Shown here: one piece after another, positions 4,546-18,243 of the stretch
Layout of the letters: every line of letters begins with the position of its first letter
Position numbering within the stretch: the stretch's first letter is position 1
From: a virus
Length of the DNA: 28,495 nucleotides
Reading direction: 5' to 3' (one strand)
Virus record (IMG/VR): IMGVR_UViG_3300021379_000981
Location: 1 to 28,495 of that record
The notes under the pieces: model-generated
What the model was told of the DNA's origin: nothing
The model's database searches: none
Seen by the model: only the letters and a program-made list of their open reading frames with translations
Program-made: the position numbers and the translations under genes

Positions 4546-4965
4546 TTATCTACCGCTTGAGCCAAACCCTCCAGTTCCACGGCTTGTGTCACTTAATTCA
4601 TCTACTATATCAATGGGTAATTGTAACACAGGAGTTATGATTAGCTGTGCTATCCTATCTCCATACTCAGGTATTTCAAACTCTGAGTCTTTATCTGTTT
4701 TAATAACAATCTCTCCACGATAATCAGAGTCTATAGCACCTGTTGTATTAGCTAAGCGTAAACCTTTTATACCTACACTACTACGGGGAATAAGAAATCC
4801 CCCATACCCTTGAGGAATCTCCACTGCTAATCCCGTATGATAGTCTACAGTTTTTGCATTTATTGATACTTTATAGAAGCTTAAATCATAACCCATTGCA
4901 TACTCTGATCCTCGTACAGGAACTCGTGCAGCTGGATCAAGCTTCTTAAAATTTAATGTCCTCAT
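4546..4965 (-). CDS. dut: dUTPase (deoxyuridine 5'-triphosphate nucleotidohydrolase)
   Basis: A complete 139-residue trimeric-type dUTPase that hydrolyses dUTP to dUMP and pyrophosphate. This keeps uracil out of phage DNA and supplies the substrate of thymidylate synthase. All five family motifs are visible in order: G-Y-D-L-S-F, P-R-S-S-V-G-I-K-G, G-A-I-D-S-D-Y-R-G-E, D-R-I-A-Q-L, and the C-terminal R-G-T-G-G-F-G-S-S-G that closes over the active site. The start has a strong AGGAGGT six bases upstream and overlaps the stop of the metallopeptidase gene (ATGA). ThyX, which uses the product, is encoded in the same operon. Confidence 0.96.
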   Translation of the reverse strand: MRTLNFKKLDPAARVPVRGSEYAMGYDLSFYKVSINAKTVDYHTGLAVEIPQGYGGFLIPRSSVGIKGLRLANTTGAIDSDYRGEIVIKTDKDSEFEIPEYGDRIAQLIITPVLQLPIDIVDELSDTSRGTGGFGSSGR

Positions 4966-5549
4966 CGTATTACCTCCTGTACTCTACTTATAGCAAACGC
5001 ATTAATTATTGGTCTATCCCATACTTGGAATATCACTTTTCTTCTAATATCTAGCCGTATTGATTTCTTCATCTCTGCCCATATAGCTTCTGCATCCTCT
5101 TTTGTTACAGGTTCCTTAGCTAACACTGTACTACAATCTGGAAGAGTCATATACTGCTCTCTAGTAATCTTTATAGGGTGCGAGGTGGGGGATAAGGATA
5201 TTATATCTCCTTTTAATCTACCCCATAATTGGGCTGCTCCACATGGACTATACCCTGCTCGTCTCACATAATACAAGCCTAACATATCAGCATGGTACTC
5301 GTCAAGATAAGAATGTTCTTTTGTTCTATTATGTCCTAACTCCAAATGAGCTATCTCATGTCCAATAATACTTGCCAATTCATGTTTATTATTTACAAAA
5401 TTCAATAATCCTGTAGTGACAACAACAGAATGACCTACAACTTCATACTCTTTGCTTACGTAAGTGAGGTTTTGTTTATAGAACATTTCTAACAATAGTA
5501 GGTAAGTTAGTACCCACAATATTAAAAATAAACGATCAATTGTTTTCAT
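4962..5549 (-). CDS. Membrane-anchored M48-type zinc metallopeptidase
   Basis: A 195-residue protein with an N-terminal hydrophobic segment (about residues 6-20) and an M48-like catalytic core. The zinc motif is H64-E65-I-A-H68, and the third ligand lies in D-E84-Y-H-A-D, the E-x-x-A-D arrangement typical of M48 peptidases (HtpX, BepA and LoiP group), followed by R-R-A-G-Y. It is shorter than cellular M48 enzymes but keeps the full zinc site, so it is probably active. The ATG at 5549 follows AGAGGA at 6-base spacing; an upstream TTG at 5564 is less likely. It sits between primase and dUTPase, an unusual place for a protease. Possible roles are remodelling a host membrane or periplasmic protein, but no substrate is suggested by sequence. 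Confidence 0.8.
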   Translation of the reverse strand: MKTIDRLFLILWVLTYLLLLEMFYKQNLTYVSKEYEVVGHSVVVTTGLLNFVNNKHELASIIGHEIAHLELGHNRTKEHSYLDEYHADMLGLYYVRRAGYSPCGAAQLWGRLKGDIISLSPTSHPIKITREQYMTLPDCSTVLAKEPVTKEDAEAIWAEMKKSIRLDIRRKVIFQVWDRPIINAFAISRVQEVIR

Positions 5550-6282
5550 ATAAAATCCTCTCAATTTCGGTAGGTGAATATTCTTTCGGGTCTTTCTCTG
5601 TTATGATAAGCTTAACATGCCATGACACATCATATTTATATGGGAATTTCTTTTTAAGATATATCATCTTTCTCACTAACTGGTCTTCCATCTTATAAGC
5701 CCCAGTCATACCAGGCTTATCACCGTCTAACCATATTTTTATATAATTATATTTATCAAGAAGGGTGGACACATCTCCAGAGTTTATTGAAGTACCGAAT
5801 AACACCCATACATCGGCAAACTCGCTAACTCTCACACCACTGATATAATCTTCTACTAACACTACAGTTTTGTTTCCATTTTCAAACTTATCCACGTGTT
5901 TATATCCTACATTCTTTATACGTTTATCAGGAAAGAATCGTTGTACATAAAATACAACTTCATTATCTTGTATTACAGGAAAGATTAAACTATTATCTTG
6001 ATACCATATAGGAGCATTCCTGATTTCAGAATCTCGAATATAGTATTTGTATAACCAGGACAGAGTTTCTAAACTGAACTCCCGAGGATTACTCGTATAT
6101 TGAGGTAGTGGCACGTCTTTAGCAGCTTTGGTTATTGGAGTTTTCATAAAGGCACGGCGCTCTTTATTATAACTCTTTGCAATCCCACATGTAAAGCATT
6201 TATAACCGTCTGTAAACTCTGCGTAACACGGTGTGTTTATACCACTACCACAATGAGGGCAGCTTGTCATCCTGACTAACAT
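5536..6282 (-). CDS. DNA primase (zinc finger plus TOPRIM)
   Basis: A 248-residue primase of the T7 gp4A type but without a helicase domain. The N-terminus has a zinc-binding element C8-P-H-C11 ... C29-F-T-C32. The TOPRIM fold shows E144 in V-L-V-E-D-Y-I-S-G and D186-x-D188 in W-L-D-G-D-K-P-G, followed by D231-P-K, where primases of this group have a conserved K-D-x-x-E. It would make short RNA primers for the family A polymerase, working with the separate helicase. The start has AAGGAGA seven bases upstream. The gene begins 3 bases after the csrA stop and overlaps the peptidase gene by 14 bases. Confidence 0.9.
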   Translation of the reverse strand: MLVRMTSCPHCGSGINTPCYAEFTDGYKCFTCGIAKSYNKERRAFMKTPITKAAKDVPLPQYTSNPREFSLETLSWLYKYYIRDSEIRNAPIWYQDNSLIFPVIQDNEVVFYVQRFFPDKRIKNVGYKHVDKFENGNKTVVLVEDYISGVRVSEFADVWVLFGTSINSGDVSTLLDKYNYIKIWLDGDKPGMTGAYKMEDQLVRKMIYLKKKFPYKYDVSWHVKLIITEKDPKEYSPTEIERILYENN

Positions 6283-6285
6283 GTA

Positions 6286-6468
6286 TTACTCTCCTTGTTG
6301 CTTTTTGTCTTCTTGTATCTTTAAATAAATTTCTTGTCTATAGATTGGCACATTCTTCTTAGCATTAATACCAATTCTCACTTGATTACCAGCAATACCT
6401 AATACAGCTATGTTGATATCATCCCCAATAATTATTGATTCACCTATTCTTCTCGTAAGTACAAGCAT
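6286..6468 (-). CDS. csrA: CsrA/RsmA-family translational regulator
   Basis: A 60-residue protein that matches the whole length of bacterial CsrA (usually about 61 residues). It begins [10 protein letters not shown], continues through [10 protein letters not shown], and ends with Y43-R44-Q-E-I-Y. The RNA-contacting residues L4, R6 and R44 known for CsrA are present. In the family, the dimer binds GGA motifs, usually in hairpin loops near ribosome binding sites, and represses or stabilises mRNAs. Here it lies two bases after an upstream gene and three before primase. The region just before its ATG carries three GGA triplets within 17 bases, overlapping the ribosome binding site, so autoregulation is plausible. 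Host CsrA could compete for or share targets. Confidence 0.95.
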
Positions 6469-6740: not shown

Positions 6741-7300
6741 AACTTATGCAGCCTAGCCTGTGTATTAATCATTAACAAATTAGCTGCAATATGCCCTAGA
6801 TGATGAAACCCACTCTCCTCGTCTATATCACCAATATAGATAATCTTAAGAAAGTGCCTAGCAGCTGCATCTAACAACTCTTCTATAGGAATTGCTTTCC
6901 TATATCCATACAACTGGTATTTACCACTAGCAACAGCATTAGCTCTAACACCACACAGGTTTGTAATGAAATCATCATCTAAATCACGTACAGCATGTAA
7001 AGCCATTTCACAGCAATGCTTCACTGCTGCTGTATTCTTCATATCAACAGAGTCAGTAAGGTCTTTTAACATAGACTCAAGCTGGTAATATTTATTAAGA
7101 TTCATAGCAAGAGAATGCTCACCAAGATAGCAATACCTTGCTCCTTTAGCTTTCCCTTCTGATTGTTTCAAAGGTTGTGTAGGGTATAATGGGACGAATT
7201 CTACTTTAGCTGCCTTGTCATCAGCTAACTGTTCAACAATACTTTTAGCTTTTACATCTTCAACCATCTGTTCTAATTCAAATTCATCATAATGAGCCAT
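6737..7300 (-). CDS. Probable dATP/dGTP diphosphohydrolase-like protein (DUF5664-type)
   Basis: A 187-residue protein whose C-terminal half matches the phage DUF5664 (dATP/dGTP diphosphohydrolase N-terminal) pattern. It has P-I-E-E-L-L-D-A-A-A-R-H-F (about 137-149), then D-I-D-E-E-S-G-F-H-H-L-G-H-I-A-A-N-L-L. The conserved R-H, the E-S-G and the H-L-G-H-x-x-x-N are the recognisable pieces. Related proteins belong to the all-alpha NTP pyrophosphatase-like group and would trim purine deoxynucleotide pools. The neighbours ThyX and, further down, dUTPase support a nucleotide-pool role. The first 60 residues are acidic and not recognised. AAGGAG lies before the ATG. Confidence 0.65.
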   Translation of the reverse strand: MAHYDEFELEQMVEDVKAKSIVEQLADDKAAKVEFVPLYPTQPLKQSEGKAKGARYCYLGEHSLAMNLNKYYQLESMLKDLTDSVDMKNTAAVKHCCEMALHAVRDLDDDFITNLCGVRANAVASGKYQLYGYRKAIPIEELLDAAARHFLKIIYIGDIDEESGFHHLGHIAANLLMINTQARLHKL

Positions 7301-7301
7301 G

Positions 7302-7931
7302 TTATTCTCCTTTTAAGTCCTTATAAGCATTATACACAATTGGTAGATGCTCTGCAAGAATTAATTCTATCTCCTGTGCTATTTCTCTATGTTCTAGCTG
7401 GGTAGATTCATGGGTTCTTAATTGCAGGTAATGCAACCAAGACCTAATCGTTCCATTCATATATAATTTAGTTTCAGCTGCTCCTGGTAGGAGGAATCTA
7501 GCTGATTCTTTAGCAATACCTTTATCAAGAGCCTCTCTGTATTTATCTAAAGCATACTTATGTAGGTCATGTTCAACACAATCCCACCATGTGAGCGTAT
7601 CTACATCTAAATCTTCAAAGCTATTCTGTCTATTCTTGGTGTCTTGTCTTCTCGGTGTTGTTGGTGTTAACCCGGGACATGCTGCATATCGTTGACTAAA
7701 CTCTTGAAAGCTAAAGCTTCTGTGTCTCAAGATTTGTGGGGATATAGCTCTGGTAGTGGTTATTTCGATACACATGTTAGCCATTTCAAATATTGACCAG
7801 TGTCCGTGGTTTATACAATAGTTCAATAATCTAGTATTACTAGAATCTTGGTTATTAGAAGAAACTCTTGCACAATACATAATATTCTTTTCAGCTTCTG
7901 GTGTTATCCATACTAATTTAGTTTTAGTCAT
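7302..7931 (-). CDS. thyX: Flavin-dependent thymidylate synthase ThyX
   Basis: A complete 209-residue ThyX, which methylates dUMP to dTMP using methylene-tetrahydrofolate, FAD and NADPH. The signature R-H-R-x7-S is exact at R69-H70-R71 to S79 (R-H-R-S-F-S-F-Q-E-F-S). Downstream, A-R-F-L-L-P (144-149) and the helix with R-S-W-L-H-Y-L-Q-L-R (163-172), then E-H-R-E-I, are typical dUMP- and flavin-site segments. It overlaps the upstream gene by 8 bases and the ribosome binding site is weak, suggesting coupled translation. Together with dUTPase it makes a dUTP to dTMP route independent of the host ThyA. Confidence 0.96.
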   Translation of the reverse strand: MTKTKLVWITPEAEKNIMYCARVSSNNQDSSNTRLLNYCINHGHWSIFEMANMCIEITTTRAISPQILRHRSFSFQEFSQRYAACPGLTPTTPRRQDTKNRQNSFEDLDVDTLTWWDCVEHDLHKYALDKYREALDKGIAKESARFLLPGAAETKLYMNGTIRSWLHYLQLRTHESTQLEHREIAQEIELILAEHLPIVYNAYKDLKGE

Positions 7932-8259
7932 CCTTTGCTAACTCCTCTATTACATCCGCATGTTTTTCTGTTACATATTCAAGAGCATCTGGAAAAACAT
8001 CTTGGTCCTTTGCATCTTTCGACAGCTCCTTTAATACGTCATAATCCTCTTTCATTATTTCTTCTACTTCCTTATATTCAATATCACATAATAAGTTATC
8101 TATGTCAACTAGTATATTAAAGTATTCATCTGCATCTTCTGCTTCCTTTAACATATCAAATAAATCTCTTAATCCTTCATAACACTTCATCTCTGGACTA
8201 TAGAAATTCTCTATTGCTTCTTCTATATAATGTAAGACATATGTATTATTATTCGTCAT
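7924..8259 (-). CDS. Acidic hypothetical protein, first gene after the leader RNA
   Basis: A 111-residue, strongly acidic, mostly helical protein (many D and E, few basic residues). The ATG at 8259 is preferred because the GGGAG upstream is about 10 bases away, while the ATG at 8268 is only one base from it. No family is recognised. High acidity is often seen in phage DNA-mimic or inhibitor proteins, but that is speculation. It is the first gene downstream of the structured leader at 8268-8440, so its expression may respond to that leader. Confidence 0.7.
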   Translation of the reverse strand: MTNNNTYVLHYIEEAIENFYSPEMKCYEGLRDLFDMLKEAEDADEYFNILVDIDNLLCDIEYKEVEEIMKEDYDVLKELSKDAKDQDVFPDALEYVTEKHADVIEELAKDD

Positions 8260-8267
8260 CCGACTCA

Positions 8268-8396
8268 TACTCCCTTTCTGTTGATTCGCAGTCGCTCATC
8301 CTAACTTGTATCAACCCCATCCAAAGGGTTGAGGCTTGGAAACAAATCCAGGTCCAAGCCTAATCAGTTGTGTTCGTACATCGTGTACTCACTGTT
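8268..8396 (-). promoter_or_regulatory. Structured leader RNA of the leftward replication operon with GGA hairpin loops
   Basis: No gene occupies 8269-8444. On the minus strand, two perfect stems follow one another. Bases 8333-8360 form an 8-bp stem (GGCTTGGA with TCCAAGCC) and a 12-base loop containing TGGAT. Bases 8312-8331 form a 6-bp stem (CAACCC with GGGTTG) and an 8-base loop TTTGGATG. A weaker third stem at 8290-8306 exposes AGGA. GGA displayed in loops is the known CsrA recognition form, and CsrA is encoded in this operon. The 14-base sequence AACTGATTAGGCTT leading into the first hairpin (8356-8369) recurs exactly before a similar hairpin in the rightward RNA at 17035-17048. Confidence 0.6.
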
Positions 8397-8421
8397 TTAT
8401 ATATAGTAAACTGTTTGTCAA
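8396..8421 (-). promoter_or_regulatory. Possible weak promoter before the leader RNA
   Basis: On the minus strand a perfect -35 TTGACA (8416-8421) is followed by TATAAA at 8396-8401. The spacer is only 14 bases, so strength is doubtful. It would start transcripts just upstream of the structured leader and so bypass the 72-residue gene. The alternative is read-through from the strong promoter at 8702-8730. Confidence 0.35.
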
Positions 8422-8444
8422 CTTTTTTCAAGAATCTTTACAAT

Positions 8445-8663
8445 TTATATTAGTTCCCATATGTTGTGGTTGGTAGCTTCTTGATAAGAAATCTCAATAT
8501 CACTAGCTTCTTTCTTGATATATAATTCCTTGAGTGCTTTTATATGATCTTCTGGTTTCTGATTATCATATACATATTTAGTTACATATTCTACTGCCAG
8601 TTCTCCATGTCTGTCTGTAAATACAACTCTATATCTATATATTGAAAAATTTAAATTTGACAT
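8445..8663 (-). CDS. Hypothetical protein, first gene of the leftward operon
   Basis: A 72-residue protein with alternating beta-like and helical stretches and no recognised motif. AGAAGGAG stands 7 bases before the ATG. It is the first gene after the perfect leftward promoter at 8702-8730 and is likely expressed early. A roughly 185-base gene-free stretch holding the leader RNA separates it from the rest of the operon. Confidence 0.75.
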   Translation of the reverse strand: MSNLNFSIYRYRVVFTDRHGELAVEYVTKYVYDNQKPEDHIKALKELYIKKEASDIEISYQEATNHNIWELI

Positions 8664-8691
8664 TGCAATACTCCTTCTGTCATGTTATAAT
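8663..8691 (+). promoter_or_regulatory. Rightward sigma70-type promoter
   Basis: TTGCAA (8663-8668), a 17-base spacer, then perfect TATAAT (8686-8691). The predicted start is near 8698, giving a leader of about 26 bases before the ATG at 8724. It drives the endolysin operon. It faces the leftward promoter at 8702-8730, and the two polymerase footprints would overlap. Confidence 0.75.
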
Positions 8692-8701
8692 TACATTGTT
8701 C

Positions 8702-8730
8702 ATTATAGATAAGGAAGCTAATTATGTCAA
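8702..8730 (-). promoter_or_regulatory. Leftward consensus sigma70 promoter
   Basis: On the minus strand TTGACA (8725-8730), a 17-base spacer, and TATAAT (8702-8707) match the sigma70 consensus perfectly. The start is near 8696, about 33 bases before the first leftward ATG at 8663. This is probably the main early promoter for replication genes. Its -35 overlaps the start codon of the rightward gene at 8724. Confidence 0.85.
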
Positions 8731-8993
8731 AAAAAGACCTAAAAGGATTATCTCTTGAAGAATTACTTTCACACAAAAAAGACCTTGATGATATATATGA
8801 TAGACTGCAGTTTGAGATAGATAACTTCTCTAAAGCATATCGAGCTTTGAGAGAAGAGCTAAAGCTCAGACAAGAAGAGATTATTCTTGAAATAGACTTA
8901 TTAAATGAGCAGAATGAGCACAATCTCATTGAACCAGGTGATATGGAGAAAGTGTTAGAAAGAATGAAAAGAGATGATATTAACATCCATTAG
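8724..8993 (+). CDS. Coiled-coil hypothetical protein
   Basis: An 89-residue, highly charged protein that is almost entirely helical, with heptad-like spacing of L and I through about residues 8-60, so probably a coiled coil. AAGGA lies 8 bases before the ATG. It is the first gene of the rightward operon, directly ahead of the endolysin, and its stop codon sits inside the endolysin's ribosome binding site. No hydrophobic segment is present, so it is not a spanin or holin. Function unknown. Confidence 0.75.
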   Translation: MSKKDLKGLSLEELLSHKKDLDDIYDRLQFEIDNFSKAYRALREELKLRQEEIILEIDLLNEQNEHNLIEPGDMEKVLERMKRDDINIH

Positions 8994-9001
8994 GAGGGGT
9001 G

Positions 9002-10237
9002 ATGTTTGATAAGACAACAAAGGGTGTAGAATTGTTTTTACGCGGTATACTTGATAATAAGCCCGTGAAGGGGATTTCTTCTGAACCCGCTACCTTACTA
9101 CCCATACTTAAAGAAAATAGCTTAGAAGAGCCTCAAGACGGCTTACAGCGTATGTCTCCTAAAGGGAGAGGAATGTTAGCCAACCTAGAAGATATTGTTC
9201 TTACTAAATATAAAGACAGTGTGAATGTATGGACAATTGGAATAGGAGCTACACGTACAGAGATACCAGACATAGCTGATTGGCCTTTAAATAAACAAAT
9301 ATCTGTATCAGAAGCCTTCAGTTTATTTGATGCTAGTTTACAGAAATACGAGAAAGCTGTTAGAGAAGCTCTCACTGTAGAAGTAGAGCAGCATGTATTC
9401 GATGCTATGGTTAGTTGGTGTTATAATGTAGGTACTGGATGGTGTAAAAAAGACAAAAATGGTAAAATACGTGCTACATTTATTAGATTAATCAATGATG
9501 GTGTAAAACCTTCTGATAAAAGAGTGTATAAAGCCTTTATGAGGTTTAAAAAACCAGCTGAAATTATAGGAAGACGAAAGAAAGAGGCTAAATTATTAAC
9601 TAAAGGTGTATATAGTCATTGGACTACCGCTGAAGTGGTTCCAGTTAGTAAGAAAGGCTCTCCTCTGTACTCAAAAGCTGAAACAATTGATATTACTCAG
9701 TATTTAAAGAATTCTAAAGCAGAAAGGTCGAAGAGTGTTGACACTATGCTACGTTATTATGAGAAATATAAGCATCATATCAAGAATCACGACTATAAAG
9801 TGGTTATTGAGATGGAAAAACATAGTAAATACAAGAGATTCTTTGTTTTAGATAAAAATAATAACATTATCCGTAGACATCATGTTTCTCATGGTGTAAA
9901 CTCATCATGTAAAGACAATAAAGCTTATGCTTGTACATTTAGTAATGTATTTGGTAGTAGGCAGTCTAGTTTAGGAGCTTTTGTTACAGGAACTACGTAT
10001 TATGGTAAGCATGGATACTCTCTCAACCTGCATGGGTTAGAAGAACGTAACAATAAAGCGTTTGATAGACGTGTTGTTATACATAAGGCTAGTTATGTAA
10101 CTAATTCTTATATAAAACGTCATGGTAGATGTGGAAATTCATGGGGATGCCCAGCTTTAGACCCAGCTATCTACCGAGAAGTGATAGATTTAATCAAAAA
10201 TGGTGCTTTTTTATACATTTCATACAAGGGAGACTAG
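9002..10237 (+). CDS. Modular endolysin: GH24 lysozyme fused to YkuD_2-type L,D-transpeptidase domain
   Basis: The chosen ATG (9002) gives 411 residues; a GTG one codon earlier (8999) lies too close to the AGGAGG. Positions below are counted from that GTG. The lysozyme part (about 50-208) has the T4-type triad spacing exactly: E64, D73, T79 in L-E-D-I-V-L-T-K-Y-K-D-S-V-N-V-W-T-I-G. It should cut the glycan MurNAc-GlcNAc bond. After a linker, residues about 265-412 match the YkuD_2 (murein L,D-transpeptidase) pattern: S-L-G-A-F-V-T-G, then Y-G-K-H-G-Y-S-L-N-L-H-G-L-E, R-V-V-I-H362-K-A, and G-N-S-W-G-C384-P-A. The catalytic His and Cys are both present. No signal peptide is visible, so export would depend on a holin. 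The second domain could cleave, exchange or bind stem-peptide cross-links. Confidence 0.88.
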   Translation: MFDKTTKGVELFLRGILDNKPVKGISSEPATLLPILKENSLEEPQDGLQRMSPKGRGMLANLEDIVLTKYKDSVNVWTIGIGATRTEIPDIADWPLNKQISVSEAFSLFDASLQKYEKAVREALTVEVEQHVFDAMVSWCYNVGTGWCKKDKNGKIRATFIRLINDGVKPSDKRVYKAFMRFKKPAEIIGRRKKEAKLLTKGVYSHWTTAEVVPVSKKGSPLYSKAETIDITQYLKNSKAERSKSVDTMLRYYEKYKHHIKNHDYKVVIEMEKHSKYKRFFVLDKNNNIIRRHHVSHGVNSSCKDNKAYACTFSNVFGSRQSSLGAFVTGTTYYGKHGYSLNLHGLEERNNKAFDRRVVIHKASYVTNSYIKRHGRCGNSWGCPALDPAIYREVIDLIKNGAFLYISYKGD

Positions 10238-10238
10238 A

Positions 10239-10418
10239 ATGGTCGGTTTAATTAATGCAATTTTATACATAACAAGTGGTGCTGGTTTATTATTGGAATA
10301 CTTCGGTATTATTAATTTCGGTTTAGTGGCTCTTTTAACACCAGGCTTCCTTGGTATATTAAGTAGTGTGTTAAATGTAACGTATCAAAAGAGGTTGGAA
10401 TCTAAAAAGGATAAATAA
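10239..10418 (+). CDS. Small two-helix membrane protein, possible holin
   Basis: The ATG at 10239 follows AGGGAG with 6-base spacing, immediately after the endolysin stop, and gives 59 residues. Two hydrophobic segments (about residues 3-23 and 26-46) are followed by a short basic tail ending K-K-D-K. Small size, two membrane helices, charged tail and placement next to the endolysin fit a holin or a phage lysis accessory protein. A second, better holin candidate lies at 17550. Confidence 0.7.
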   Translation: MVGLINAILYITSGAGLLLEYFGIINFGLVALLTPGFLGILSSVLNVTYQKRLESKKDK

Positions 10419-10682
10419 ATGGATAGATTGAGCAATAAACCTGTATTTATTAGTCAAAAACTCCAAGAAAACACTAATATTGAAGGAGATATACTGTGTA
10501 TCGAATGTGAAATTGGGTATATGGTGGATCAAGATGTAACCATCCAAGTGAGTGATGGTTATTTCAAACCTAAACAAACTATAAATATTCATACAAAACA
10601 ATGCCTTGTGTGTGAATCCTACGTTCTAAACGATGAACAAACCAAAGAAATACGAAAAAAATTAAAAATTCATGCAATTTAG
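10419..10682 (+). CDS. Small zinc-ribbon-like protein
   Basis: An 87-residue protein with two C-x-x-C knuckles (C27-C30 in C-I-E-C and C62-C65 in C-L-V-C) about 31 residues apart, suggesting one bound zinc. The region between is beta-rich, and the tail is lysine-rich. It starts one base after the previous stop with AAGGA upstream, and a terminator begins at its stop codon. Function unknown. Confidence 0.7.
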   Translation: MDRLSNKPVFISQKLQENTNIEGDILCIECEIGYMVDQDVTIQVSDGYFKPKQTINIHTKQCLVCESYVLNDEQTKEIRKKLKIHAI

Positions 10683-10704
10683 AGGGAACTTTTCCCTCTT
10701 TTTT
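10681..10704 (+). terminator. Rho-independent terminator
   Basis: A perfect 8-bp stem AGAGGGAA / TTCCCTCT with a 3-base loop is followed by a run of six T. It overlaps the stop codon of the preceding gene and probably ends or attenuates the endolysin transcript before the small-gene cluster. Confidence 0.85.
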
Positions 10705-10726
10705 ACGTCTAACGGAGTATACAATC

Positions 10727-10942
10727 TTGAAAATGGACAGTGAGATGACTACCCAAACCCAACGAAACTTCTGTTTCAGTATCACAAGGATCGTGATATT
10801 TCTATTAATCTGTGTTACAATACTAACTGAAAGCCCTATAAGCGACGCATGTGCTATAATTAGTGCTGCTATGTGGCTTTGGCTTCCTAATCTTGTAGCA
10901 TGGGAGCTCAAATTAATACAAAAATGGAGAAAAACTCTATGA
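10727..10942 (+). CDS. Small membrane protein
   Basis: A 71-residue protein with two hydrophobic segments (about residues 19-34 and 41-60) and a charged C-terminus. The start is uncertain. A TTG at 10727 is 9 bases from a GGAG, while the in-frame ATG at 10733 is 15 bases from it and ATG 10745 has no good site. It is the first gene after the terminator. Together with the protein at 10239 it makes a second small membrane protein near the endolysin, so a holin/antiholin-like pair is possible but unproven. Confidence 0.55.
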   Translation: MKMDSEMTTQTQRNFCFSITRIVIFLLICVTILTESPISDACAIISAAMWLWLPNLVAWELKLIQKWRKTL

Positions 10943-11133
10943 ACGGATACACATTCTTAGAGGATGGAGATTTTTACGAGCTTCGACAGGAGTATATGGA
11001 ATTTAGAAATAAATATGTGAGTTCTTATGTATTTTGTAAAATAATGTTAAAATTAAGTATTTTTATAAAGGATGATTGGGGTTTTATGTATGTAAATTAT
11101 GATTACTGGGAAGATTTAGTTAAAGGAGAATAA
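10939..11133 (+). CDS. Hypothetical protein
   Basis: A 64-residue, acidic, aromatic-rich protein starting at the ATG at 10939, which overlaps the stop of the membrane protein (ATGA) and has GGAG about 9 bases upstream. Longer in-frame starts at 10900 and 10924 would overlap the upstream gene more and lack support. No motif recognised. Confidence 0.65.
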   Translation: MNGYTFLEDGDFYELRQEYMEFRNKYVSSYVFCKIMLKLSIFIKDDWGFMYVNYDYWEDLVKGE

Positions 11134-11134
11134 A

Positions 11135-11392
11135 ATGAAAAAGATATGTGTATTAGCATTAATAACGTTATTTAGTACAAACACATTTGCATTACGCTGT
11201 AAGGGTGCTATAATTGATACAGGAGACTTCATCACTAAGATGTTTGAGAAATGTGGTGTCCCAAACGGTATGATTAGAGACGAATCTATCAATGGTGATA
11301 GAGTTGTTTATCTATACAAACGTAATGGTGTAACAATTGTTATCTCTACAAGAGATGGTGTTGTTAGGGATATTAGTGAGAGGAGATTCTAA
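11135..11392 (+). CDS. Secreted DUF2845-like small protein
   Basis: An 85-residue protein with a clear Sec signal peptide (M-K-K, hydrophobic core, then T-F-A with cleavage expected near residue 19). The mature part begins L-R-C and has K-C-G-V-P-N, which fits the DUF2845 pattern (secreted L-R-C-G ... V-x-x-x-C-G-x-P followed by a beta hairpin ending R-D-G-x-V-x-x-I). It is expected in the host periplasm. The two Cys could form a disulfide. AAAGGAG lies upstream. A secreted host-like protein in a lysis-proximal cluster may act in superinfection exclusion or envelope modification, but no direct evidence exists. Confidence 0.65.
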   Translation: MKKICVLALITLFSTNTFALRCKGAIIDTGDFITKMFEKCGVPNGMIRDESINGDRVVYLYKRNGVTIVISTRDGVVRDISERRF

Positions 11393-11658
11393 TGAGTGTG
11401 TATTTATATGCTGTAACAAAGCAAAGAAAACTGCTTACATGGAAGTGTAGGGATAGAGTAGAGGCTAAGATAGTGATGTCTAACATTGTTAGAAGCGATC
11501 TATTGAAGAATATAACAACAATGGATATCAGCTATCAAGTGGAACAACCATGGCTTAAAAAGCATAATATGTACGATAAGAGCCAGTTTATTACGTACGA
11601 GAGTAATAAGAGTTATTATTATCCTTGGATTAAGAAGGAAAGACGTATATATCAATAA
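11392..11658 (+). CDS. Hypothetical protein
   Basis: An 88-residue basic protein rich in Tyr, Lys and Arg. The ATG overlaps the previous stop (TAATG) and AGAGGAG lies upstream, so it is a genuine operon member. No motif recognised; the basic tail might bind nucleic acid. Confidence 0.65.
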   Translation: MSVYLYAVTKQRKLLTWKCRDRVEAKIVMSNIVRSDLLKNITTMDISYQVEQPWLKKHNMYDKSQFITYESNKSYYYPWIKKERRIYQ

Positions 11659-17549: not shown

Positions 17550-18011
17550 ATGTTACAACTACTGATAGGACCACTCACTACTCTTATTGAGAGGTTATTC
17601 CCAGACAAAATAGACCAAGATAAAGCCAAATCAGAAATGATGGCTATTCTTGCTGAATCTGAGGCTAAGCAATTAGAAGCTAAGTCTAAGGTGGTTGTGG
17701 CAGAAGCTAAAGGAGAATCATGGATACAGCGAAATTGGCGGCCAATTACGATGTTGTTCTTCCTATTATTGTTAGGAAGTTATTGGTTTGGATTCGCTCC
17801 TCAGTATCTTATAGATAACCCAGAGATAGTTAGTAACCTATTTACCCTTCTTGAAATAGGTATAGGTGGGTATATAGTAGGCAGGTCAATCGAGAAGACA
17901 GCGGGCAAGTTGTCACATAAACAAATATTTAACGCTATAAGGCGTGAGAAGGGGTATCTTACCCAAGAAGATGTAGATGATGTCAACCGGATCCTCAAAG
18001 GAAAAGAATAA
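17550..18011 (+). CDS. Holin of the 3TM/GTA type
   Basis: A 153-residue protein with an amphipathic N-terminus, a long A/E/K-rich helix (about 22-56), then S-W-I-Q-R-N-W-R-P-I-T-M-L leading into a hydrophobic segment (about 65-83) and a second one (about 96-112), ending in a charged tail. The A-E-A ... W-R-P-x-x-M pattern before the first membrane helix is characteristic of the 3TM holin family (Pfam holin_3TM, found in phages and gene transfer agents). AGGGAAA lies before the ATG. It opens the inner membrane so the endolysin, encoded 7 kb away, can reach the wall. It is the first gene of the late operon. Confidence 0.8.
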   Translation: MLQLLIGPLTTLIERLFPDKIDQDKAKSEMMAILAESEAKQLEAKSKVVVAEAKGESWIQRNWRPITMLFFLLLLGSYWFGFAPQYLIDNPEIVSNLFTLLEIGIGGYIVGRSIEKTAGKLSHKQIFNAIRREKGYLTQEDVDDVNRILKGKE

Positions 18012-18012
18012 A

Positions 18013-18243
18013 ATGGAACCATTTTTAGAATCAATGATTAAAGTGTTGAGTTATTGCGCTGGTCCAATAATTGGATTATTCGCTTGGTTAGGGAAAAGAT
18101 TACATAATCGTATTGATTCATTAGAACAAGAACAAAAAGAAAATAAGATAGAAATAACAATATTAAAGACACAACAGTTAGATATCAAGGAAGACATTCA
18201 GAAGATGGATGAGAAATTAGACAAGATTCTTGATAGAGTGTAA
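18013..18243 (+). CDS. Membrane-anchored coiled-coil protein, possible spanin-like
   Basis: The ATG at 18013 (76 residues) follows AAAGGAA; the in-frame ATG at 17977 overlaps the holin gene and is unlikely. One N-terminal hydrophobic segment (about residues 10-25) is followed by a 45-residue charged helix with heptad-spaced I and L, that is, a membrane-anchored coiled coil. An inner-membrane spanin (Rz type) or an XhlA-like accessory would look like this. No outer-membrane partner with a lipobox is visible nearby, so the assignment is open. Confidence 0.6.
   Translation: MEPFLESMIKVLSYCAGPIIGLFAWLGKRLHNRIDSLEQEQKENKIEITILKTQQLDIKEDIQKMDEKLDKILDRV

Follow-up and report, generated by a model that had tools for sequence, protein, structure and literature searches.

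The 28,495-base IMG/VR record analysed here (the window; G+C 36%) carries at 9002-10237 (+) a single open frame of 411 amino acids plus stop that matches two Pfam families, a GH24 muramidase (PF00959) followed by a YkuD_2 domain (PF13645), and the lysozyme-YkuD_2 fusion put forward in the original prediction is thereby borne out. A ribosome-binding site, AGGAGG, read directly from the sequence, lies at 8992-8997 (+), 5' of the ATG at 9002. The original prediction counted 412 residues and placed the catalytic residues at H362 and C384 because of a GTG at 8999 in frame with this ATG; numbered from the ATG, they are H361 and C383. The junction between the two halves is in frame and without a stop, and the halves are alike in G+C (0.36 and 0.34) and in codon usage.

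The window also contains terminase (TerL), portal, and holin genes, and no tRNA or Rfam RNA was found within its 28,495 bases. TerL is 47% identical to that of a Hafnia phage and to those of Jersey-type Salmonella phages. Thus, the window comes from a distant siphophage relative and, being a fragment, is incomplete. The holin (GTA_holin_3TM; 17550-18011, +) matched PF11351 (1.7e-11) and the holin family phrog_3427 (1.4e-28), and is the likely route by which the endolysin is released. A gene at 17977-18243 (+) encodes a small, holin/spanin-like membrane coiled-coil protein with weak PHROG matches to Rz-like spanin and holin and a blastp homologue in contig L193. Directly 3' of the endolysin gene, a gene with its own ribosome-binding site (10239-10418, +) encodes a 59-aa membrane protein, a possible lysis helper, for which no Pfam or PHROG family was matched. 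Elsewhere the phage encodes a membrane-anchored M48 metallopeptidase (4962-5564, -; PF01435, 3.2e-14), a CsrA-like RNA-binding regulator recognised by eye (6286-6468, -), and, in its early region, an exported protein of the bacterial envelope family DUF2845 (11135-11392, +).

The GH24 half

The GH24 (Phage_lysozyme) domain spans residues 62-184 (9185-9553, +), scoring 73.3 bits against a PF00959 cut-off of 22.3 (E=2.8e-20), and matched PDB lysozymes as well as the endolysin family phrog_7 (8e-31), so that PHROGs also assigns the protein as an endolysin. The lysozyme triad predicted to be intact is present as E63-x8-D72-x5-T78 (codons 9188-9190, 9215-9217, and 9233-9235, +). The protein has no signal peptide and its N-terminus is not hydrophobic; together with the PF00959 match, the triad, and a phage genome that bears a holin, this marks it as a predicted GH24 phage endolysin.

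The nearest phage relative of the GH24 part is gp67 of EBPR siphovirus 2, with 46% identity over the aligned part. The two proteins share the triad and the segment that follows the lysozyme domain (post-GH24 segment and linker, 9554-9715, +), and the likeness extends beyond the fold of the lysozyme, up to residue 235 or so, ending where YkuD_2 starts. From there on they diverge: gp67 continues into a weakly PG_binding-like C-terminus with a membrane segment and has no L,D-transpeptidase domain. This GH24 type therefore exchanges its C-terminus. The BaGTA endolysin BgtA likewise resembles the window protein in its GH24 part, with an NF058676 match of 61 bits that lies below the cut-off of 315, but it too is without an L,D-transpeptidase domain.

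The YkuD_2 half and its relatives

The second domain, residues 244-406 (9731-10219, +), matched PF13645 with E=8.4e-50 and 168.9 bits against a cut-off of 27, covering profile positions 8-168 of 169; the HMM search proposed for the C-terminal half thus did return a YkuD-type family. Structure prediction, also proposed, agreed: an AlphaFold2 model of the YkuD_2 domain alone, built with 38 relatives in the alignment, reached a pLDDT of 96.5, and Foldseek matched it to LdtMt2, YkuD, and Pgp2 (E ~1e-6 to 1e-4, TM ~0.5), with LdtMt2 as the best match. In the PDB no sequence relative of the domain was found. On the strength of the model, the domain is confidently predicted to adopt an L,D-transpeptidase fold. 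The catalytic His and the Cys in an S-W-G-C-P context that had been described are present in the motif H361-x18-S380-W-G-C383-P-A (His361 codon, 10082-10084; Cys383 codon, 10148-10150; both +, assigned from alignments), and the endolysin accordingly carries two intact catalytic domains.

A second GH24-YkuD_2 fusion was not found when IMG/VR and GTDB contigs were scanned, non-exhaustively, with the full-length protein and with window-specific YkuD_2 patterns. A single PF13645-like match came from 50,697 phage records: a prophage-adjacent Pseudomonas aeruginosa chromosomal gene inside a Pf-phage record (OQ658363.1, 'Pseudomonas phage sp.', 4162-4899), which we rejected as a phage YkuD_2. The same gene, again prophage-adjacent, on an IMG/VR contig (L012, 576-1313) was rejected likewise. 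As both records contain genes of the P. aeruginosa chromosome, the YkuD_2 in them is of host origin and was carried along. Scanning with patterns nearer to the window, however, revealed genuine phage YkuD_2 on two IMG/VR contigs of a partly related phage, IMGVR_UViG_3300032249_000788 and 3300032315_001330. Here the domain is a separate gene of 188 aa, without a signal peptide and about 50% identical to the window domain, and it adjoins replication genes, as in the window. These contigs and the window share an AAA+ ATPase (40% identity), a pentapeptide protein, and the holin/spanin-like gene; the remaining shared genes are weak matches. The longer of the two contigs has a separate 150-aa GH24 gene; no GH24 gene was found on the shorter, itself a fragment. 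We also observed on IMGVR_UViG_3300032249_000788 (reverse complement, 6962-11626) what is apparently a PrkA (YeaG)-YeaH-SpoVR-like gene set, names that we assign presumptively from reading the sequence; such a set is usually a cellular stress operon.

In a tree of 82 rows, the two phage YkuD_2 domains grouped together as a clade (99/91), separate from the 80 cellular enzymes. This clade, and the free copy on two contigs, argue that YkuD_2 is, as judged from these sequences, an established phage gene, present either on its own or, as in the window, attached to a lysozyme. These data also bear on whether a host gene was joined to a phage lysozyme by misassembly or misannotation. The fusion is known from one contig only, and the other two 'phage' matches proved to be chromosomal; yet the uninterrupted junction, the matching composition on both sides of it, the shared clade with the free gene of another phage, and the missing signal peptide make such an artefact very improbable.

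YkuD_2 was present in 41 of 274 gammaproteobacterial genomes. Each of the 80 cellular YkuD_2 proteins that we inspected is a single-domain protein, and almost every one has a signal-peptide-like stretch at its start. No lysozyme fusion was found among the three longest YkuD_2 frames of the 274 genomes, which are exported proteins with C-terminal extensions. Cellular members such as Legionella Lpg1697 and its Vibrio homologues share the catalytic residues and the fold with the window domain at about 35-51% identity, but they are exported, single-domain, and have an Arg before SxGC, whereas the window domain lacks a signal peptide, is fused, and has an Asn at this position.

We then considered how far the active site is conserved. 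The window domain sits on a long branch (1.6-2.2 changes per column), and even so it has preserved 25 of the 27 columns whose conservation in 36 cellular YkuD_2 proteins is 97% or more, both His and the catalytic Cys included, which argues for continued catalysis. Endolysins often carry binding domains, and the domain could instead have become a non-catalytic module that binds the wall and targets the lysozyme, all the more as gp67, of the same GH24 type, has its weakly PG_binding-like C-terminus in this place. Since the catalytic residues are kept, and since the standalone phage form too retains nearly all family-invariant residues, we regard a role in binding only as improbable. The conserved columns, the Pfam matches, and the fold support instead the idea, already present in the original prediction, of a lysin with two activities.

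One of the two near-invariant columns that have changed is the residue immediately before SxGC. All 80 cellular enzymes have Arg here; the window has Asn379 (codon 10136-10138, +), and the second phage copy has Gln. In the aligned sequences this Arg is lost in the phage clade. The Arg is absent from the Pfam definition, and therefore the PF13645 membership of the window domain stands. Cross-linking L,D-transpeptidases carry (S/T)xGCh(R/N), while SxGChA has been proposed as a mark of the hydrolase DpaA/YafK (PMC10434034). The YcbB/LdtMt2-type signature is absent from the window domain, whose SWGCPA resembles the DpaA/YafK form but has Pro at the h position. Nearly every YkuD_2 has this motif, which thus cannot distinguish the phage form and serves as a family-level hint only. 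Both the SxGCPA motif, as against (S/T)xGCh(R/N), and the lost Arg may be taken as indirect hints in favour of hydrolysis.

These features weigh on two rival readings of the domain's reaction. The main one holds that it is mainly a transferase that swaps D-Ala4 for a different D-amino acid or makes 3-3 bonds and thereby mis-edits the wall, as does the T6SS effector Tlde1 with its mixed carboxypeptidase/exchange activity (PMC9638812). It has in its favour the fold and catalytic residues of L,D-transpeptidases, the position of LdtMt2 as best structural match, and the finding that the exchange and carboxypeptidase activity of Tlde1a can be toxic (PMC9638812). However, SxGCPA is without the Arg/Asn of the cross-linking enzymes, the otherwise universal Arg near the Cys is lost in the phage clade, and cross-linking would oppose lysis; we therefore consider a transferase unlikely, though it deserves more weight than the other rivals. 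Slightly less probable is a hydrolase that acts specifically on mDAP-linked anchors of the outer membrane (Lpp/OprI, beta-barrel proteins), with which the endolysin would cut glycan and unhook the outer membrane before the spanins act. The YkuD-type enzyme DpaA does so in E. coli (PMC8263019, PMC10653827), and the window domain has the SxGChA-like motif; YkuD_2 is, however, not closely related to DpaA, which was absent among the best 50 structure matches listed.

phrog_3000 and other YkuD-type lysins

One GH24 relative, on contig L013, ends in a different domain with the motif NFHRGG...TSSLGC, which belongs to phrog_3000, a family of unknown function in PHROGs and without a Pfam family. It occurs in at least 225 IMG/VR contigs (loci include L013, 3784-5130; L107, 5185-6684; L108, 5488-6687; L131, 5974-6522; and about 75 others within L106-L185), mostly as a standalone protein some 182 aa long, and gp76 of Bdellovibrio phage phi1422 is a member. 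In several loci small membrane-protein genes adjoin it (ORFs read by eye). On three contigs it is fused to a glycosidase: GH24 (L013), GH24 with PG_binding_1 (L107), and Glucosaminidase (L108). Thus it shares with the window protein the His...SxGC motif and the glycosidase fusions, but not a detectable sequence kinship to YkuD_2: hhalign aligned the His and Cys of the two families with a probability of 3%. In the PDB no sequence relative of phrog_3000 was found, and its model (pLDDT 85.6) gave weak best matches, to Csd6 (E=0.02, prob 0.94) and LdtMt1 (E=0.11). phrog_3000 is therefore a probable, not proven, YkuD-fold family and a putative lysin. Among viral-protein models, YkuD-like folds were also seen in proteins that bear the names of lysins, GH19 proteins, or tail-lysozyme proteins.

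L,D-transpeptidase-type domains in lysis proteins have been recorded before: PhaLP lists 10 phage lysins with YkuD-type domains under PF03734, PF10908, and cd16913 (PMC8310338), gut phages have a lysin of GH25, choline-binding, and YkuD domains (PMC13284279), and Vibrio phage martha 12B12 has an L,D-transpeptidase-like presumed endolysin (PMC9239132). The last is probably VPCG_00031 (L199, 23132-23554, -), a 140-aa protein with the motif HILIHKANRAVQLEGC, which we picked by eye and which looks like DUF5675. All of these resemble the window protein in kind, but they belong to other families (that of martha 12B12 being unnamed), and none combines GH24 with PF13645. The domain had originally been called unusual for an endolysin; this holds for YkuD_2, whose genuine phage copies were limited, in our scans, to the window and one partly related phage, but not for YkuD-type domains generally. 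Within the patterns and collections searched, the new findings are that PF13645 occurs in phages, that it is joined there to GH24, that the phage domains alone have lost the Arg beside the active site, and that phrog_3000 shows fusions of a parallel kind.

Proposed action during lysis

We propose, at a probability of roughly 50%, that the window protein is an endolysin with two enzyme activities that depends on a holin and belongs to a siphophage of Gram-negative bacteria, with GH24 cutting the glycan and YkuD_2 hydrolysing at the L-centre of mDAP. Being without a signal peptide, the endolysin would remain cytoplasmic up to the moment at which the holin opens the inner membrane. The GH24 domain would then cut MurNAc-GlcNAc bonds, while Cys383, aided by His361, would attack the stem peptide at the L-centre carbonyl of mDAP. 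An acyl-enzyme would form at Cys383 and be resolved by water, releasing the group attached at this centre, be it D-Ala4, the neighbouring stem that is 3-3 cross-linked to it, or a tether to the outer membrane (for example Lpp). From the evidence above we infer release through the holin, catalytic activity, hydrolysis over transfer, and the bond that is cut. The free phage YkuD_2 with its separate GH24 and the glycosidase fusions of phrog_3000 support a role as endolysin, as far as sequences can indicate, and a lysin has to achieve net hydrolysis. Three points count against the hydrolase reading: the literature surveyed holds no demonstrated activity for any PF13645 enzyme, loss of Lpg1697 in Legionella left muropeptides unchanged (PMC10117105), and the closest solved folds to the model include cross-linking L,D-transpeptidases.

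More broadly, the relatives suggest a recurring and little-noticed phage tool for opening the Gram-negative wall. L,D-transpeptidase-fold Cys enzymes (the YkuD_2 clade, phrog_3000, and others) may even be a general, overlooked endolysin class among phages of Gram-negative bacteria, made into mDAP-bond hydrolases by changes beside the Cys and fused to glycosidases on several occasions, whereby one protein would cut both the glycan and the peptide links or outer-membrane tethers; this wider proposal we hold tentatively, with rather less than even confidence. L,D-transpeptidases have been studied as wall builders and carbapenem targets. If the proposed reading is true, the phage domain would represent a naturally occurring hydrolase form of their fold that dismantles the wall by the same chemistry, and could be used to cut L,D bonds or outer-membrane anchors. 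The reading would further hint at the reaction of the widespread PF13645 family and provide phrog_3000, one of many phage families without a function, with one that can be tested.
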